DNA of 32,826 nt from Candidatus Symbiothrix sp. (GTDB lineage Bacteria > Bacteroidota > Bacteroidia > Bacteroidales > Azobacteroidaceae): positions 1 through 32,826 of the forward strand of contig JAISKM010000088.1 in the NCBI GenBank assembly GCA_031261285.1, in the 5' to 3' direction. This document shows positions 2,541 through 32,826 of this stretch, in pieces (within the stretch, counting starts at the first letter, position 1; each line of letters begins with the position of its first letter). Position numbers and translations under genes: made by a program. Below the pieces are notes generated by a model. It had not been told where the DNA came from, made no database searches, and saw only the letters and a program-made list of their open reading frames with translations.

Positions 2541-4801
2541 GTTTTAAGAGCGTGCAGTTGTTTGATTTTTTCTTTTTCGCCCACTAACCAAAGAATATCG
2601 CCCGCTTCAAATACCAAATCCAGGCCGGGATTCATGATTGACCAGCCTTCGCGCTCAACACCGACCAACAGACAATCGTGGTCGTCCTGCATGCGCGAAG
2701 TCAAGGCAGTTTGTCCAATCAAAGCCGAATCGGTCTCCAATTCTATTTGCCGAATTTGCACAGCCGGATAATAATGTTGTTCGTGGTCGGCATATTTCGC
2801 CTGTTTATCCTCGATGCGCGCCTGAAATTGCTCCATTTGTTTGTCGGTTCCCAACACAATCAGGTGGTCGTTCGGATAAATGCGTTCATCACCGTTCGGG
2901 ATATTGATTCGAATACCGTTACGCATAATCGTGACTACATTTACACCAAAATATTGACGGAATTTCAACTGCTTCAAACTTTGTCCCACAATGGAATAAT
3001 GCGGCTGAATTAAAAAGTCCGACAAGTGCATATCGCGTTGCAACACGTGTTTCACAAATCCCTTAGGGATAAGGGCTTGCGACTCTTCATATTTTTCTTT
3101 TTCGTTGAAATTTTCATGGAAGCGTTCGTGGAGATGTTGACTTGATTTTTTCAACCGGCGCGAAGTCATAAACAGGATAACCAGCACCATGCCCACAGAA
3201 AATCCGAGCAATAAACCCACCTCAAACAGGCGATGCAAAATATACATAATCAGCACGACGCACATCAGAATACGCACTACAATCGTAAAAATAAGCGGTC
3301 CGCGGTTCGCTTTATTGTGCTCCCAGAGTTGCAAAAATTCCTTGGAGTGGTCTTTATTGATGACAATAACGAGCAAAAACGGCGAAATCAGCAAAATAGT
3401 GACCACCGCACCCACTATATCGGCCTGCATGGCAGATAAGTATTTCTGTAGCAGCGGAATACCAAGTGCAAACGAGAAATACACAATCACGATACAGATA
3501 AAATAGTACATCACAACGGAGGTAATCATGCTCTTCAAAAAGCGTTTCCAGAGATTTTCCTCGTTCATAACCGGCGCACCGGTTGCCCCTGAAGAATTTC
3601 GATTGAGCCAATTGAGCCATTTTTTCGGCAGTTTACGTGCCAATACCACATAAGCAGGATCGGCCGACTTCATCACATAAGGCGTCACAAAAATCGTAAC
3701 AATCGAAGCGCCCACAATCGTCTGATACAGAGCACCTTCTATCACGCCCAAACCCAGTCCGAGATTACCAATGATAAAGGAAAATTCACCGATTTGCGTC
3801 AACGAAAACCCTGCCGAAACCGCCGTTTTCAAATTTTGACCCGACAACAGCACGCCACCGGTGGCAAACAGCATCTGACCAAAAATCACAACCACGCTAA
3901 TCACCAAAATCGGCACAATATTCACACCAAGCGCCGGCAACGACACCATCATCCCTACCGACACAAAAAATATCGCTCCAAAAAAGTTTTTGATGGGCAA
4001 AATCAGTTTTTCAATCCGTTCGGCATCCAGCGTTTCCGCCAAAATCGAACCCATGATAAACGCTCCCAAAGCATCCGAAAAGCCTGCTTGAGTAGCCAAA
4101 TAAACCATACCCAAACACATTCCTATCGACACAATCAACAGCGTTTCATCGTTGAGAAAACGTTTCATTTTGCGTAAAAAAGTCGGCAGCAGATACGTCC
4201 CCAATAAAAACCAAAACAGCAAGAAAGCCAGCAATTTGAACAGGCTAAACAGCAAGTCCTGACCCACCCCAACGTTTTTACTGACAGCCACTGTCGAGAG
4301 CAAAACCATCAGCAATACCGCCACCAAATCCTCTATAATCAGGATTCCAAGGACAATCGACGCAAAACTTTTATTCGTTAAATTAAGTTCTTCAAACACC
4401 TTGAGAATAATCATCGTGGACGACATACAAATCATGGCACCCAGAAACAGGCTTGTCATGTGCGACCAACCAAAACTCAGCCCCGTCATATAGCCCAAGC
4501 CAATCATCGAAATCACAATAAAAATCGTCGATACAAACGCTGTAGGACCTACCTGCATCAATTTTTTGAAACTAAATTCAAGTCCCAGTCCAAACAAAAG
4601 AAAAATAATCCCGATGTCTGCCCAAGTCTCAATGTGTTCATACTGAGGCGATTCCTTCACAATAAAAAATGTCATCACAATTCCTGCAACGATGTAAGCC
4701 AGCACCACAGGCTGTTTGAGCCACTTAAAAAGCACCGAAAAGCTACCCGCCAACACGAGTATCAGTGCTAAATCAATAATAAGTGGCGATAGTGCTTCCA
4801 T
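2528..4801 (-). CDS. CPA2-family cation/proton antiporter with RCK_C domains
   Basis: A 757-residue inner-membrane transporter expected to exchange K+ or Na+ for protons. Residues 1 to about 395 are the Na+/H+ exchanger domain with 12-13 hydrophobic segments, including the GIIFLLFGLGLEFSFKKL and SSTMIILKVFEELN regions typical of KefB-like proteins. About 425-560 adds four more membrane segments. Two RCK_C (TrkA_C) domains follow, at about 610-680 (YSIVGQSLKQLKFRQYFGVN...DHLIVLGT) and 690-757 (ALIGQTALTSRM...GDILWLVGEKEKI). There is no full TrkA_N Rossmann domain. This arrangement is common in Bacteroidales. A TAACTTTG box at 4819-4826 is only 17 bases before the start, so the leader is very short. 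kdsB follows in the same direction. Ion specificity cannot be read from the sequence. Confidence 0.88.
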   Translation of the reverse strand: MEALSPLIIDLALILVLAGSFSVLFKWLKQPVVLAYIVAGIVMTFFIVKESPQYEHIETWADIGIIFLLFGLGLEFSFKKLMQVGPTAFVSTIFIVISMIGLGYMTGLSFGWSHMTSLFLGAMICMSSTMIILKVFEELNLTNKSFASIVLGILIIEDLVAVLLMVLLSTVAVSKNVGVGQDLLFSLFKLLAFLLFWFLLGTYLLPTFLRKMKRFLNDETLLIVSIGMCLGMVYLATQAGFSDALGAFIMGSILAETLDAERIEKLILPIKNFFGAIFFVSVGMMVSLPALGVNIVPILVISVVVIFGQMLFATGGVLLSGQNLKTAVSAGFSLTQIGEFSFIIGNLGLGLGVIEGALYQTIVGASIVTIFVTPYVMKSADPAYVVLARKLPKKWLNWLNRNSSGATGAPVMNEENLWKRFLKSMITSVVMYYFICIVIVYFSFALGIPLLQKYLSAMQADIVGAVVTILLISPFLLVIVINKDHSKEFLQLWEHNKANRGPLIFTIVVRILMCVVLIMYILHRLFEVGLLLGFSVGMVLVILFMTSRRLKKSSQHLHERFHENFNEKEKYEESQALIPKGFVKHVLQRDMHLSDFLIQPHYSIVGQSLKQLKFRQYFGVNVVTIMRNGIRINIPNGDERIYPNDHLIVLGTDKQMEQFQARIEDKQAKYADHEQHYYPAVQIRQIELETDSALIGQTALTSRMQDDHDCLLVGVEREGWSIMNPGLDLVFEAGDILWLVGEKEKIKQLHALKTITN

Positions 4802-13286: not shown

Positions 13287-14921
13287 TTATTTCGCACAGC
13301 GAACGCTTCGACGAAAATATTTATAATTCCAGCAGCAGCCTGTGGTGTCAACTTGAACAGCGTGCTGGCCATTGCCATAAATATATGCGGGATACATATA
13401 TGTTCCATTAGAGCTACTCGCTGTTATATAAACTGCACTTTGGGCGACCATCGCTTTATCAATAGTTTCCGGTGATGAACTTTGCCCCACTAAAAGCATA
13501 TTCATTCCATGGCCCGCGGCAAATGAGACACCAGGTAGCCCATAAGTTCCAAAACCAACGGACGTCACTGTAGAAATCAGGGCGTTGGCGGCATTTTGGT
13601 CTTTACTCCCCCAAGTATTATTGCCGGGGTTAGCAGTACTAAATTGGTTAGCATGTTCATTGAGATAAGTGATCATCGTCTTCCACTCAGTTCTTGTAGG
13701 TATATGCCAGCCATCGGGACATATACCTTGTTGATTCACAAGATCTACATTAGCGTATGACGCTCCATCGGTTACCTTCATCGCAGCAGCCCAGTTGTAT
13801 AGATAGCCTATCCGGCCGCCGGCATATATCGGATTTTTAACCTGGTCATCTGTAAGACCACCCGGCCGGCAATATGCCGGAGTAGTCGCTGCTGTTTCAC
13901 TTTGTGTGTAAGCGATACCACTTTCCGTAGCTTGCGGTTTGTAAGCCAAATTCTCAGCCATCCATTTCACGCCATCAATCTCTATGGTTTTATATACCTG
14001 ACCATCACGCGAGTCGTACAGGGTATTGTCGCTAACATTAACAACGAAAATATTAGACGTAACATGATTGCCATCCGTTGATTTAGCTGTGATAGTCGTA
14101 CTACCTATATTATCTACAAGACTTGTAGTTGTAACCAAACCGGAAGAATTAACAGTAGCCACACTTTCATCGCTACTAAACCAATCAACCGTTTTAATAC
14201 TGGCACCATCCGGAAGAACCGTTGGCGTTAGTTGATACGTATCGCCCAAAGACAAGTTAGCAGGAGAGGCAGCATTTGAAGGACCAGCGATGGTAATTGT
14301 CTGAACCGGAATCCCTACTTGAATAGTAAAGGGATCGCTTGAAACACCATCCAAAGAAGCAGTGACAGTCGTAATACCGTTATGGATACCGGTGACTGTG
14401 GCGGTATTGACACTACCTTCGAGTTGATCAACTATGGCTACCGAAGGATTGTTTCCTCCCCAGTTGACTGTGGTCCAACCGGCGTTGACAGGAAGGACGG
14501 TCGCTGTTAGGGTCTGTGTGCCATCAACAACGACATGCCCCGCAGGATCGGCAGAAATAGTGATACTTTCAGGAACCGGACCGCTACCACCTCCTGCATT
14601 AGCCAATGCCCAACCATTAGTGCCTTGCCAAATATAAACACCGGATTCCAAACCGGCACCACCGAGGTTGTAGACCATCAAACCCGATTCCAATAAGTCA
14701 GTATTTTCTACAATATCAATCCATTCATTAGGAAGTGCGTCCGCCACTGTCAAAGTGACTTGAGGTAGAAGAAGGCCACCGGATGTGGAAGAACTTAAGT
14801 CAAGCACAGCGCCCGGCGTGATTGGATCATCGGCATTGCCGCCGATTTTGACTTGTGCCTTTGTTTGTGAACTTACCAACAATGTGGCAACCAACAGAAC
14901 GAATAATTTTGTTTGTTTCAT
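13287..14921 (-). CDS. Secreted multidomain protein: N-terminal module, two Big_2 domains, FISUMP domain
   Basis: 544 residues. A signal peptide (MKQTKLFVLLVATLLVSSQTKA) leads into a module of about 90 residues (VKIGG...GAVLDLSSSTSGGLLLPQV ... GVYIWQGTNGWALA) that is shared with the neighbouring 116-residue protein. Two bacterial Ig-like Big_2 domains follow, about 118-203 and 208-297 (TLTATVLPVNAGWTTVNW; TYQLTPTVLPDGASIKTVDW). The C-terminal part, about 303-544, is a Fibrobacter succinogenes major paralogous (FISUMP) domain: DGQVYKTIEIDGVKWMAENL, CPDGWHIPTRTEWKTM and the final RRSVRCAK. Such proteins are surface or extracellular in Bacteroidota; the ligand is unknown. It lies 69 bases downstream of the 116-residue gene with no promoter box between, so it is probably co-transcribed behind the leader RNA at 15390-15660. 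Confidence 0.85.
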   Translation of the reverse strand: MKQTKLFVLLVATLLVSSQTKAQVKIGGNADDPITPGAVLDLSSSTSGGLLLPQVTLTVADALPNEWIDIVENTDLLESGLMVYNLGGAGLESGVYIWQGTNGWALANAGGGSGPVPESITISADPAGHVVVDGTQTLTATVLPVNAGWTTVNWGGNNPSVAIVDQLEGSVNTATVTGIHNGITTVTASLDGVSSDPFTIQVGIPVQTITIAGPSNAASPANLSLGDTYQLTPTVLPDGASIKTVDWFSSDESVATVNSSGLVTTTSLVDNIGSTTITAKSTDGNHVTSNIFVVNVSDNTLYDSRDGQVYKTIEIDGVKWMAENLAYKPQATESGIAYTQSETAATTPAYCRPGGLTDDQVKNPIYAGGRIGYLYNWAAAMKVTDGASYANVDLVNQQGICPDGWHIPTRTEWKTMITYLNEHANQFSTANPGNNTWGSKDQNAANALISTVTSVGFGTYGLPGVSFAAGHGMNMLLVGQSSSPETIDKAMVAQSAVYITASSSNGTYMYPAYIYGNGQHAVQVDTTGCCWNYKYFRRSVRCAK

Positions 14922-14990: not shown

Positions 14991-15341
14991 TTAAGACACT
15001 TCAGCCAACAATTTCCACCCGGCCGATGACCAATAATAAACCCCGATAAGAATATCGGTAGAAGTAGTTTCATCAACTGCTGCTGTTTTATTATAAACCA
15101 AGAGACCAACAACGGCGTGGGGATCGGTTTCACTGGGAAAATCAACAGGCAAAGCCGTGAGTTGGGTGATTTCTACTTGCGGCAGGAGCAAGCCGCCTTT
15201 TGTGCCATCCAACTGAAGGATGATACCAGTATTGGCACTCGGGGCATCACCATCACCAATGGAAACTTGAGCAGTGATTGGCAACCAATTACCGGTTACT
15301 AAAAGAGTGGTAACCAGCAAAAATAAAAATGTTTTTTTCAT
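14991..15341 (-). CDS. Small exported protein equal to the N-terminal module of its neighbour
   Basis: 116 residues from the ATG at 15341 (MKKTFLFLLVTTLLVTGNWL...). The signal peptide is followed by a module (VSIGDGDAPSANTGIILQLD, KGGLLLPQVEITQLTALP, VVGLLVYNKTA, GVYYWSSAGWKLL) that aligns with residues 23-110 of the 544-residue protein downstream. It has no Big_2 or FISUMP part, so it is a stand-alone module or a cut-down duplicate. The longer open frame to 15443 is rejected because it would run back through the hairpin and T tract of the upstream RNA. The signal-peptide codons for LVTGNWLP contain seven-base periodic sequence (AGTAACC GGTAATT GGTTGCC, minus strand). Function unknown. Confidence 0.75.
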   Translation of the reverse strand: MKKTFLFLLVTTLLVTGNWLPITAQVSIGDGDAPSANTGIILQLDGTKGGLLLPQVEITQLTALPVDFPSETDPHAVVGLLVYNKTAAVDETTSTDILIGVYYWSSAGWKLLAEVS

Positions 15342-15380: not shown

Positions 15381-15388
15381 CAAATTTA
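15381..15388 (-). promoter_or_regulatory. Possible internal -7 box before the 116-residue protein gene
   Basis: The minus strand reads TAAATTTG, just past the T tract of the leader RNA. No matching -33 box is seen, and the homologous position in the second copy (near 32685) lacks it, so read-through from the leader promoter is an alternative. Confidence 0.35.
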
Positions 15389-15389
15389 A

Positions 15390-15660
15390 ACATAAAAAAA
15401 GCGCAGGAACTGTTAAACTTATCCAATTATCAGGTTCTCGCAAAACCCCAGAAACAGATAAGCAACAGACCTACGCTCTATTGTATATAACAAATTATAC
15501 ACAAATAGAACGCAAGCATTTTGTTAACTACCCTGTTTCCTTTCAAAACTTTGCGAGATTTGATAATTAGGATAATATTTTAAACGCTTTCGTTTAATCC
15601 AAAAAGTCTTTCTAAACACTACTAACAACGCTTTGTCAACATTTTGTGGTTTAGAAGTTG
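15390..15660 (-). ncRNA. Structured leader RNA, copy A (about 270 bases), before the FISUMP protein operon
   Basis: Homologous to 32414-32683 (+). Over about 95 bases from the -33 box through the 5' hairpin the two copies are roughly 80% identical by eye. 5' hairpin: 15650-15657 with 15608-15616, plus an inner seven-pair stem (TGTTGAC with GTTAGTA, allowing G-T pairs). A TAAACG-AAAG-CGTTTA hairpin follows. A long pairing joins 15551-15575 to 15421-15444, enclosing GAAACAG/CTGTTTC and an apical stem 15473-15490/15496-15513. A 3' hairpin (15464-15476 with 15401-15414) precedes a run of seven T. The 3' hairpin and the long pairing cross, so they probably exclude each other, as in an attenuator. 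The family is not one I recognise. Confidence 0.75.
15394..15476 (-). terminator. 3' hairpin and T tract of leader RNA copy A
   Basis: GCGTAGG/CCTGCGC (with one T-G pair) and CTGTT/AACAG on the minus strand, followed by TTTTTTT (15394-15400). Copy B has GCGTGAG/CTCACGC and CTATT/AATAG at the same place: different bases, same pairing. Confidence 0.65.
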
Positions 15661-15663
15661 GTG

Positions 15664-15695
15664 CAAAGGAAAGCATTTTTTTTCAAACTACCAAA
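15664..15695 (-). promoter_or_regulatory. Promoter of leader RNA copy A
   Basis: -33 box TTTG (15692-15695), exactly 20 bases, then -7 box TTCCTTTG (15664-15671). Copy B has TTTG, 20 bases, TTACTTTG. Both have a run of eight A between the boxes. Confidence 0.75.
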
Positions 15696-32378: not shown

Positions 32379-32410
32379 TTTGGCAGTCTCAAAAAAAATG
32401 CGTTACTTTG
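32379..32410 (+). promoter_or_regulatory. Promoter of leader RNA copy B
   Basis: -33 TTTG (32379-32382), exactly 20 bases, then TTACTTTG (32403-32410), with eight consecutive A between. The layout and flanking bases match the promoter of copy A at 15664-15695. Confidence 0.8.
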
Positions 32411-32413
32411 CAA

Positions 32414-32683
32414 CCTCTCTAAATCCCAAAACTGTTGGTAAAGCGTTGCCAATAGTGTTTAGAGAGGCTTTTATCATATCTCGATTCAGAATGTGGAAAT
32501 TCAATTTACTGCGGGATATGAGCAAAAAGCGATCACGTTTTTTTCTGTATATAATTTTGAATTCTATGAATTCTACTTTATATGGGATTGACGCGTGAGT
32601 AGCTATTGCTCTCTGCAGTATGGGCTTTCCACAGCCTTGAATCAAGAGAGCGTATAATAGTTCCTCACGCTCTTTTCTTTTTA
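32414..32683 (+). ncRNA. Structured leader RNA, copy B (about 270 bases), before a secreted-protein gene
   Basis: Homologous to 15390-15660 (-). The 5' hairpin has a 10-base stem (32414-32423 with 32458-32467, CCTCTCTAAA) and an inner stem CTGTTGG/CCAATAG (32432-32438 with 32449-32455). A second stem is 32475-32483 with 32512-32520. A third region has GAATTC-TAT-GAATTC. The 3' hairpin has three stems: 32593-32599/32664-32670, 32603-32607/32656-32660 and 32608-32614/32645-32651, then TCTTTTCTTTTT. TCTCGATTCA (32480-32489) can also pair with TGAATCAAGAGA (32638-32649), which overlaps the 3' hairpin. About 50 bases later a secreted-protein gene starts, and this spacer also aligns with that of copy A. 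Confidence 0.78.
32593..32682 (+). terminator. 3' hairpin and T tract of leader RNA copy B
   Basis: GCGTGAG/CTCACGC, CTATT/AATAG and GCTCTCT/AGAGAGC stacked with small internal loops, then TCTTTTCTTTTT. It is placed before a gene, as in an attenuator. Confidence 0.7.
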
Positions 32684-32732
32684 TAAATTGCCGAACTTGA
32701 GGACGGAGAGGCGAAAAAAACATTATGTACAA

Positions 32733-32826
32733 ATGAAAACATTTAATTTCAGAAGATTGCGGATCCAGTCCGCAATGACAGTTGCGTTAGCGATTGCCTG
32801 TGTTCTGGTAACCGGTAACTGTTCAC
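32733..32826 (+). CDS. Start of an exported protein gene (cut by window edge)
   Basis: The ATG at 32733 opens a frame of 31 codons to the window end: MKTFNFRRLRIQSAM followed by TVALAIACVLVTGNCS, a basic start and a hydrophobic core like a signal peptide. The region before the ATG (GCCGAAC ... GAGAGGCGAAAAA ... CAAATGAAAA) aligns with the region before the 116-residue protein gene at 15341, which also continues LLVTGN in its signal peptide. Codons 9-16 are encoded by a palindromic repeat (32756-32776) and the VTGN codons by seven-base periodic sequence. The mature protein is outside the window; a relative of the 13287-15341 proteins is an inference. Confidence 0.6.
   Translation, partial: MKTFNFRRLRIQSAMTVALAIACVLVTGNCS
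32756..32776. repeat. Palindromic repeat ATTGCGGA-TCCAG-TCCGCAAT
   Basis: A hairpin followed by GACA, of the same class as 20243-20271. It is read in frame in the signal peptide region of the gene starting at 32733. Confidence 0.8.

Follow-up and report, generated by a model that had tools for sequence, protein, structure and literature searches.

A widespread candidate leader RNA of Bacteroidota with two mutually exclusive folds and copy-specific complementary segments

Introduction

The window analysed here, a stretch of 32,826 nucleotides from Candidatus Symbiothrix sp., contains two related noncoding sequences, copy A and copy B, each standing before a gene for an exported protein. The question raised by this locus is what kind of RNA is encoded there, and what it might do for the gene behind it. 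The initial annotation, made from the letters of the window, had described two homologous RNAs and proposed either a new cis-acting leader RNA of surface-protein (FISUMP-type) genes or a duplicated sRNA. Here, we followed these copies through the source genome, its relatives and the phylum.

Results

Our reading of the two copies (Table 1) revealed the same order of parts in both. The promoter is followed by a hairpin at the 5' end, a long middle part rich in structure, and then, towards the 3' end, a GC-rich hairpin with its T-rich tract; a conserved spacer leads on to the start codons at 15341 (copy A) and 32733 (copy B). The proposed homology is borne out by a mean column identity of 77% between A and B over the promoter, the RNA and the spacer to the start codon, with an RNA of about 280 nt; the promoter, TTTG-20 nt-TTnCTTTG, and the likeness of the spacer up to the next ATG were also found in both copies. 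Between A and B, bases are replaced on both arms of the 5' hairpin and of the 3' stems, as the initial annotation had claimed. The 3' stem (GCGTGAG/CTCACGC in B, GCGTAGG/CCTGCGC in A) is indeed compensatory, and is more correctly described as the base of a terminator-like hairpin before the T-rich tract; its 5' arm also has a second, upstream partner, which had been missed. Folding compared with dinucleotide shuffles gave z = -9.2 for copy B and -6.8 for copy A, and none of 200 shuffles was as good.

Table 1. Positions of the elements, their parts and the genes behind them in the window
Feature	Position	Strand	Basis
Copy A, whole element	15695-15383	minus	read directly
Copy A promoter: TTTG (15695-15692), 20 nt, TTCCTTTG (15671-15664)	15664..15695	minus	
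Copy A leader RNA	15383..15663	minus	R1 144.7 bits; R2 126 bits
Copy A rod 5' strand: X5 AATTATCA (15568-15561), Y5 TCTCGCAAAGTTTT (15558-15545)	15504..15568	minus	
Copy A GCTTGCGTTCTATT, in rod 5' strand, pairs with terminator 5' arm	15517-15504	minus	
Copy A terminator hairpin: GCGTAGG (15476-15470) to CCTGCGC (15407-15401)	15401..15476	minus	
Copy A terminator loop: Y3 GGGGTTTTGCGAGA; X3 TGATAATT	15449-15436; 15432-15425	minus	
Copy A T-rich tract	15392..15400	minus	read directly
Copy A, first gene of unit: 116-aa exported protein	14991..15341	minus	no Pfam family
Copy A, second gene: 544 aa, Big_2 and Fib_succ_major (FISUMP) domains	13287..14921	minus	
Copy B, whole element	32379-32688	plus	read directly
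Copy B promoter: TTTG (32379-32382), 20 nt, TTACTTTG (32403-32410)	32379..32410	plus	read directly
Copy B leader RNA, transcription start region to T-rich tract	32411..32688	plus	alignment A2 (23 copies); R1 283 bits; R2 82.6 bits
Copy B hairpin P1	32414..32467	plus	fold; A2 helices 2-3 covary
Copy B hairpin P2 (CATATCTC/GGGATATG), alternative to the rod	32475..32520	plus	OFF structure covaries in A4
Copy B P2 loop: X5 GATTCAG; Y5 TGTGGAAA; Z5 ACTGC	32483-32489; 32492-32499; 32508-32512	plus	
Copy B GAGCAA (32520-32525) and TCACGT (32533-32538), rod partners of terminator 5' arm	32520..32538	plus	A4 ON helix 5; three-way covariation
Copy B terminator hairpin P4: GCGTGAG (32593-32599) to CTCACGC (32664-32670)	32593..32670	plus	
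Copy B P4 loop: Z3 GCAGT; Y3 TTTCCACA; X3 TTGAATC	32615-32619; 32626-32633; 32637-32643	plus	
Copy B T-rich tract after terminator stem	32671..32684	plus	read directly
Copy B post-terminator spacer GCCGAACTTGAGGACGGAGAGGCGAAAAA	32689..32732	plus	almost identical across 23 copies
Copy B, start of exported-protein gene (MKTFNFRRLRIQSAMTVALAIACVLVTGNCS...), truncated by contig end	32733..32826	plus	

Copies A and B are real, and the count of two was a large underestimate. A BLAST search of the genome with copy B returned 23 copies, A and B included, referred to here as type 1, and a covariance model built from them (R1, 280 positions) found about 60 in the 2.83-Mb genome. Among the additional copies is a second type that differs in sequence but is laid out in the same way. 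R1 matches occurred in 32 of 61 genomes, comprising the source genome and its relatives, with at least 67 copies in G002 and at least 37 in G014, both of the same genus. No R1 match was found in G003 and G023, nearly complete genomes of 1.0-1.2 Mb in few contigs from the same genus; absence from such small genomes would fit a loss in reduced endosymbionts. When the second-type sequence pattern was compared with named genomes, nine records were obtained, including Candidatus Symbiothrix Hs463_bin62, 'Prevotellaceae' MAGs and Bacteroidia MS495-7, MS499-65 and PG1894_40, which we take to be termite-gut lineages, as the isolate names and Symbiothrix suggest. Three contigs of a viral collection carry exact matches to a sequence pattern. 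Downstream of four type-1 copies, a second, lower-scoring element (L013:2276-2484, L015:817-1025, L016:275-482 and L019:2261-2472) follows a few hundred bases on, apparently in the interval that separates the first short gene from the one after it.

A compact covariance model (R2) extended the distribution much further. R2 matches were found in at least 118 of 295 Bacteroidales genomes and at least 84 of 183 genera, the counts being lower bounds from a survey that scored eight candidates per genome. In a sample of 296 genomes drawn from across Bacteroidota, 33 matched at E up to 1e-7, and some of these belong to other orders and classes. A copy with 73% identity resides on a plasmid of Chryseobacterium shandongense, a named species of Flavobacteriia. 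False positives from long hairpins are a genuine concern with such models. Matches were therefore read directly, and a sample of distant R2 matches was seen to keep the promoter, hairpins, rod and terminator. R2 was also specific: over 102 kb, the copies scored 54-147 bits, and no other sequence exceeded 24 bits. The covariance-model search suggested in the initial annotation has in this way yielded further homologs across the phylum.

The order of promoter, leader, terminator with T-rich tract, and gene is the same in type-1 copies and in distant Bacteroidota. The Bacteroidota-type promoter TTTG...TnnCTTTG is present in most type-1 copies, and TAnnTTTG-like boxes in most distant ones. A GC-rich stem directly before a T-rich tract recurs across the phylum, the tract being interrupted in several groups (CTTCGTATTTTT in G014); long hairpins of the P4 type were not flagged by a simple terminator scan. 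For the type-1 copies, 18 of 18 testable cases have the start of an ORF of 80 aa or more no further than 60 nt downstream on the same strand, compared with 3 of 23 on the reverse side. Among all testable copies, 72 of 125 have a start codon within 150 nt, at a median of 42-50 nt. No ORF was found within 150 nt of 17 of 39 distant copies, some copies in other orders having no close ORF, and in G002 and G014 the gene begins 200-500 nt further on. The TAnnTTTG promoter was not found in the aligned type-1 spacer of 40-50 nt, so that expression probably depends on read-through. Between the terminator and the start codon, there is a small hairpin with a GGGAC/GGAAC loop. Pairing of this loop with GTCCC/GTTCC in the 3' arm of the terminator is possible, the complementarity being moderately above that of shuffles.

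The genes behind the 23 copies encode exported proteins of two related classes (...AQVAIGGDGTVTPGALLDLSQATDAGGLLLPQ... and ...AQVSIGDGDAPSA..LDGTKGGLLLPQV...), and at the level of the genus most downstream genes encode GGLLLP-type exported proteins, of which some carry Fib_succ_major. Among the products in relatives are a family-8 glycosyltransferase, HlyD, DUF805, and lipoprotein-like and SusC-like proteins, the last two called by eye. Downstream genes are FISUMP-type in the source genus and diverse elsewhere. At several sites on other contigs (L024-L030; e.g., L026:1501-1600), the leader is missing, and its promoter leads directly into a short inverted repeat (TGTCATTCCCGCGTAGGCGGGAATCCCATAA-like), perhaps a second leader type under this promoter. 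An inverted repeat (GATTGCGGATCCAGTCCGCAATGACA) also lies at 32755-32782, in the signal-peptide coding region, and is found again in the majority of class-i paralogues; it looks as though a REP-like repeat had turned coding.

Folding indicated two alternative structures, both possible in 23 of 23 BLAST-found copies. In the long rod, X, Y and Z, which lie on the 5' side, bind complementary segments close to the 3' end; further in, a strand that reads TCACG (or CTCGCG, TTACG and others) pairs with GCGTGAG. The latter sequence doubles as the terminator's 5' arm, so that the rod and the terminator are mutually exclusive. When the X/Y/Z pairs were forbidden, the hairpin P2 (e.g., TATTCTTG/CAAGAATA) and the terminator formed; the P2 sequence is TATTACTTTG/CAAAGTGATA in one set of copies and CATATCCC/GGGATGTG in another. 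The computed energies favour the rod over the P2-plus-terminator fold by 6-15 kcal/mol, and G-U pairs are frequent in the helices of both. A small hairpin in the P2 loop presents Y, another in the terminator loop presents the Y complement, and a kissing contact through Y is possible in the P2-plus-terminator state. A full pseudoknot combining P2, the terminator and all of X, Y and Z is geometrically implausible, as about 25 bp would have to form between two closed loops without linkers; within this state, only the short Y contact would fit the geometry. For the rod state, pairing of the T-tract with a short A-rich 5' strand is conceivable, a match of a kind that A/T runs give by chance.

Covariation was examined in MAFFT alignments of the 23 copies (A2) and of 41 diverse cores (A4). 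In A2, 37 pairs of the rod changed on both sides, with a covariation of 0.310 against 0.06-0.09 for slid partners, and the terminator reached 0.218 against 0.07-0.10. In A4, covariation was 0.412 for the rod (slid controls at most 0.13) and 0.295 for the P2-plus-terminator fold (slid at most 0.125), and 0 of 500 shuffles reached the score in either case; the percentage of paired positions is inflated, because the structures were derived from the same sequences. More telling than these simple scores is the three-way test on columns shared by both folds. Columns 146 and 144 pair with 75 and 76 in the rod and with 233 and 234 in the terminator: triplet 75/146/233 is C-G-C in 26 copies and U-A-U in 10, and triplet 76/144/234 is A-U-A in 25 and G-C-G in 9, these being counts of related sequences and not of independent events. 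Over 13 columns of this kind, pairing is kept in both folds in 447 of 515 cells.

The sequences of X, Y and Z differ almost at random from one copy to another, with complementarity retained inside each copy. In G014 and G002, columns outside these segments are mostly 80-99% identical between copies, as against about 20-50% within them. Strands were then swapped within each group, so that every 5' strand was paired with all 3' strands of the group. Own pairs averaged -31 to -34 kcal/mol, against -11 to -13 for swapped ones (overall, -32 and -12 kcal/mol), and the own partner was best in 110 of 111 cases. Covariance models favour self-complementary matches; the type-1 copies, which were found by sequence alone, also gave the own partner as best in 23 of 23, and the copies sampled across the phylum in 38 of 39. 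Copy B (L001) and L003 are young duplicates, about 99% identical in the promoter and P1 and 98-100% in the coding start, and their X and Y segments are almost wholly different, with complementarity kept within each. As L001 has the same X and Y as L002, the segments are exchangeable between copies. A unique code in every copy is ruled out by this sharing and by the limited repertoire of Y, with 28 types in 58 copies of the source genome; X and Z vary more freely.

Comparison with Rfam, as the initial annotation had suggested with Bacteroidales-1 and 6S in mind, returned no family over the element: Rfam 15 gave no match for either window copy, and in cmscan of the window and 60 further loci no family reached its gathering score over the rod or terminator. 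The same scans found none of Bacteroidales-1 (RF01693), 6S-flavo (RF01685), Flavo-1 (RF01705), Termite-flg (RF01729) and Termite-leu (RF01730). A known Rfam family is thus ruled out for the element itself, and only DUF805b (RF02914) was found adjacent to it. DUF805b had no match in the window copies even at E up to 10. In L223, a scanned relative, one match lies 3' of the element, in the interval between terminator and start codon; in G186, each of the seven matches has a rod element 22-33 nt to its 5' side on the same strand, whereas G057 and the source genome have one match each, 13 nt 3' of the rod. At the sites of other DUF805b matches no rod was detected. At L226 (matches at G014:C112:1547-1581 and 4464-4499, minus), one match stands directly before a gene that resembles that of a DNA-binding HU protein, and no rod was found upstream. 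Like the candidate leader, DUF805b (clan CL00115) is a cis-regulatory motif near start codons, but it comprises only 35 nt and lies outside the switch.

A retron or DGR RNA was also considered and ruled out, as none of the five RVT_1 ORFs (371-473 aa; G000 contigs C96, C138, C170, C114 and C82) adjoins an RNA copy. Fib_succ_major proteins are plentiful in the source genome alongside RVT_1 ORFs, and DGR action on them would be worth checking.

Discussion

The element has the parts of a transcription attenuator: an upstream promoter, a terminator-like hairpin with a T-rich tract, an exclusive covarying candidate antiterminator and a close same-strand gene. From these sequence features, we consider that it is probably a cis-acting leader RNA that attenuates transcription of envelope and surface genes. 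Transcription would start at the conserved promoter and produce a leader with two exclusive folds. In the OFF state, P2 would hold the upstream strand while GCGTGGG..CTTATT pairs with its downstream partner; the resulting hairpin, P4, stands just before the T-rich tract, some 40-50 nt short of the start codon, and would terminate transcription. When the leader is ON, X, Y and Z would zip with their complements, and the long rod would take the terminator 5' arm and act as an antiterminator, allowing polymerase to read into the gene. A signal, such as a protein, a small molecule or the speed of transcription, may set the balance. Given the greater computed stability of the rod, the terminated state would need kinetic trapping or a factor; P2 emerges first during transcription and is able to capture the upstream strand, so that the outcome may be set kinetically or by a factor. 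This proposal builds on what the sequences bear out directly, namely the conservation and covariation of both folds, their exclusivity, the position before genes and the copy-specific complementarity. The idea of a new leader RNA of FISUMP-type genes is supported by the 18 of 18 same-strand ORFs, by Fib_succ_major behind copy A and by the lack of an Rfam match. Of the two options originally offered, a leader fits better than a duplicated sRNA, and the link to FISUMP-type genes holds in the source genus, with diverse genes elsewhere. The two exclusive folds, the copy-specific codes and the spread through the phylum had escaped the initial annotation.

An alternative is that the copies form a family of free-standing trans-acting sRNAs with their own promoter and terminator, and that the neighbouring gene is independently controlled. 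The bracketing of the RNA by promoter and terminator, the distant copies without a nearby ORF, and the existence of multi-copy sRNA families in Bacteroides (FopS, PMC11697453) would agree with this, but it leaves unexplained why the terminator 5' arm is conserved with two partners and why a conserved spacer of 40-50 nt leads to the start codon, and we regard it as unlikely. Quite unlikely, in our assessment, is a leader acting on translation or mRNA stability, for instance through an RNase III-cut rod or a hidden start region, with the T-rich tract as a mere spacer. The loop beside the start codon that can pair with the terminator 3' arm would suit such a leader, as would the occupation of the same place by DUF805b in some copies. 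However, that loop complementarity is just moderately above shuffles, and the recurrence phylum-wide of a GC-rich stem with an immediate T-rich tract argues against a mere spacer.

The high copy number and the flanks common to young copies could also point to a mobile or recombinogenic repeat, either MITE-like or a gene-shuffling DNA cruciform, that carries the promoter along, and L001, with X and Y as in L002 and flanks as in L003, looks as gene conversion would predict. The orientation and distance of the copies relative to genes, the absence of copies beside the five RT matches and the frequent G-U helix pairs, which suit RNA better than DNA, make this very improbable. All three of these explanations account for less of the three-way covariation and the pre-gene position than does the attenuator.

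Bistable leaders are a known kind of regulator; the family and its copy-specific codes appear to be new. The proposed attenuator resembles riboswitch and T-box attenuators in its promoter, leader, mutually exclusive antiterminator and terminator, and same-strand gene. It differs from both in having no recognisable conserved ligand pocket or specifier loop, and in having three hypervariable, copy-specific complementary segments and tens of copies per genome; compared with riboswitches, it also has no candidate ligand, and its downstream genes are heterogeneous. Plasmid copy-control antisense RNAs combine a conserved scaffold with diverging complementary loops that avoid cross-talk, but their partners are two RNAs, whereas here they are two halves of one leader. 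To our knowledge, the copy numbers are among the highest for any cis-regulatory RNA. FopS comprises paralogous multi-copy sRNAs of Bacteroides, about 65-70 nt long, which act in trans by a conserved seed (R1') (PMC11697453). The likeness extends to a multi-copy Bacteroidales RNA family, sigma-ABfr type promoters and a link to envelope genes, but the new element is 150-280 nt long and stands before genes, and by length and layout, rather than by seed sequence, it falls outside FopS. Bacteroidales-1, 6S-flavo, Flavo-1, Termite-flg and Termite-leu are structured RNAs of Bacteroidetes or the termite gut (PMC2864571), all of them in Rfam, unlike the new element. We found no description of the element in the open-access literature; it may be described elsewhere.

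The strangest feature is the copy-specific code, which has changed in one young duplicate pair with flanks 98-100% identical. X, Y and Z have partners in the rod only, and thus only their complementarity is constrained, whereas strands with two partners keep their sequence; if X, Y and Z indeed have a single partner, part of their variability would simply follow. The contrast with the near-identical flanks suggests more than neutral drift. We tentatively raise the possibility that X, Y and Z serve each leader as a recognition code of its own. Diversifying selection or the swapping of codes would keep paralogous leaders apart, and tens of leaders expressed together might then fold, or pair in trans, only with themselves. 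This would amount to RNA self versus non-self discrimination inside one regulon.

If our reading is correct, the element represents a phylum-wide and apparently unannotated class of leader RNAs that controls surface and envelope genes in Bacteroidota. The copy on the plasmid of C. shandongense makes testing possible outside the uncultured termite-gut symbionts. The codes, in turn, raise a testable question: whether paralogous structured RNAs in one cell must be orthogonal in order to fold correctly.
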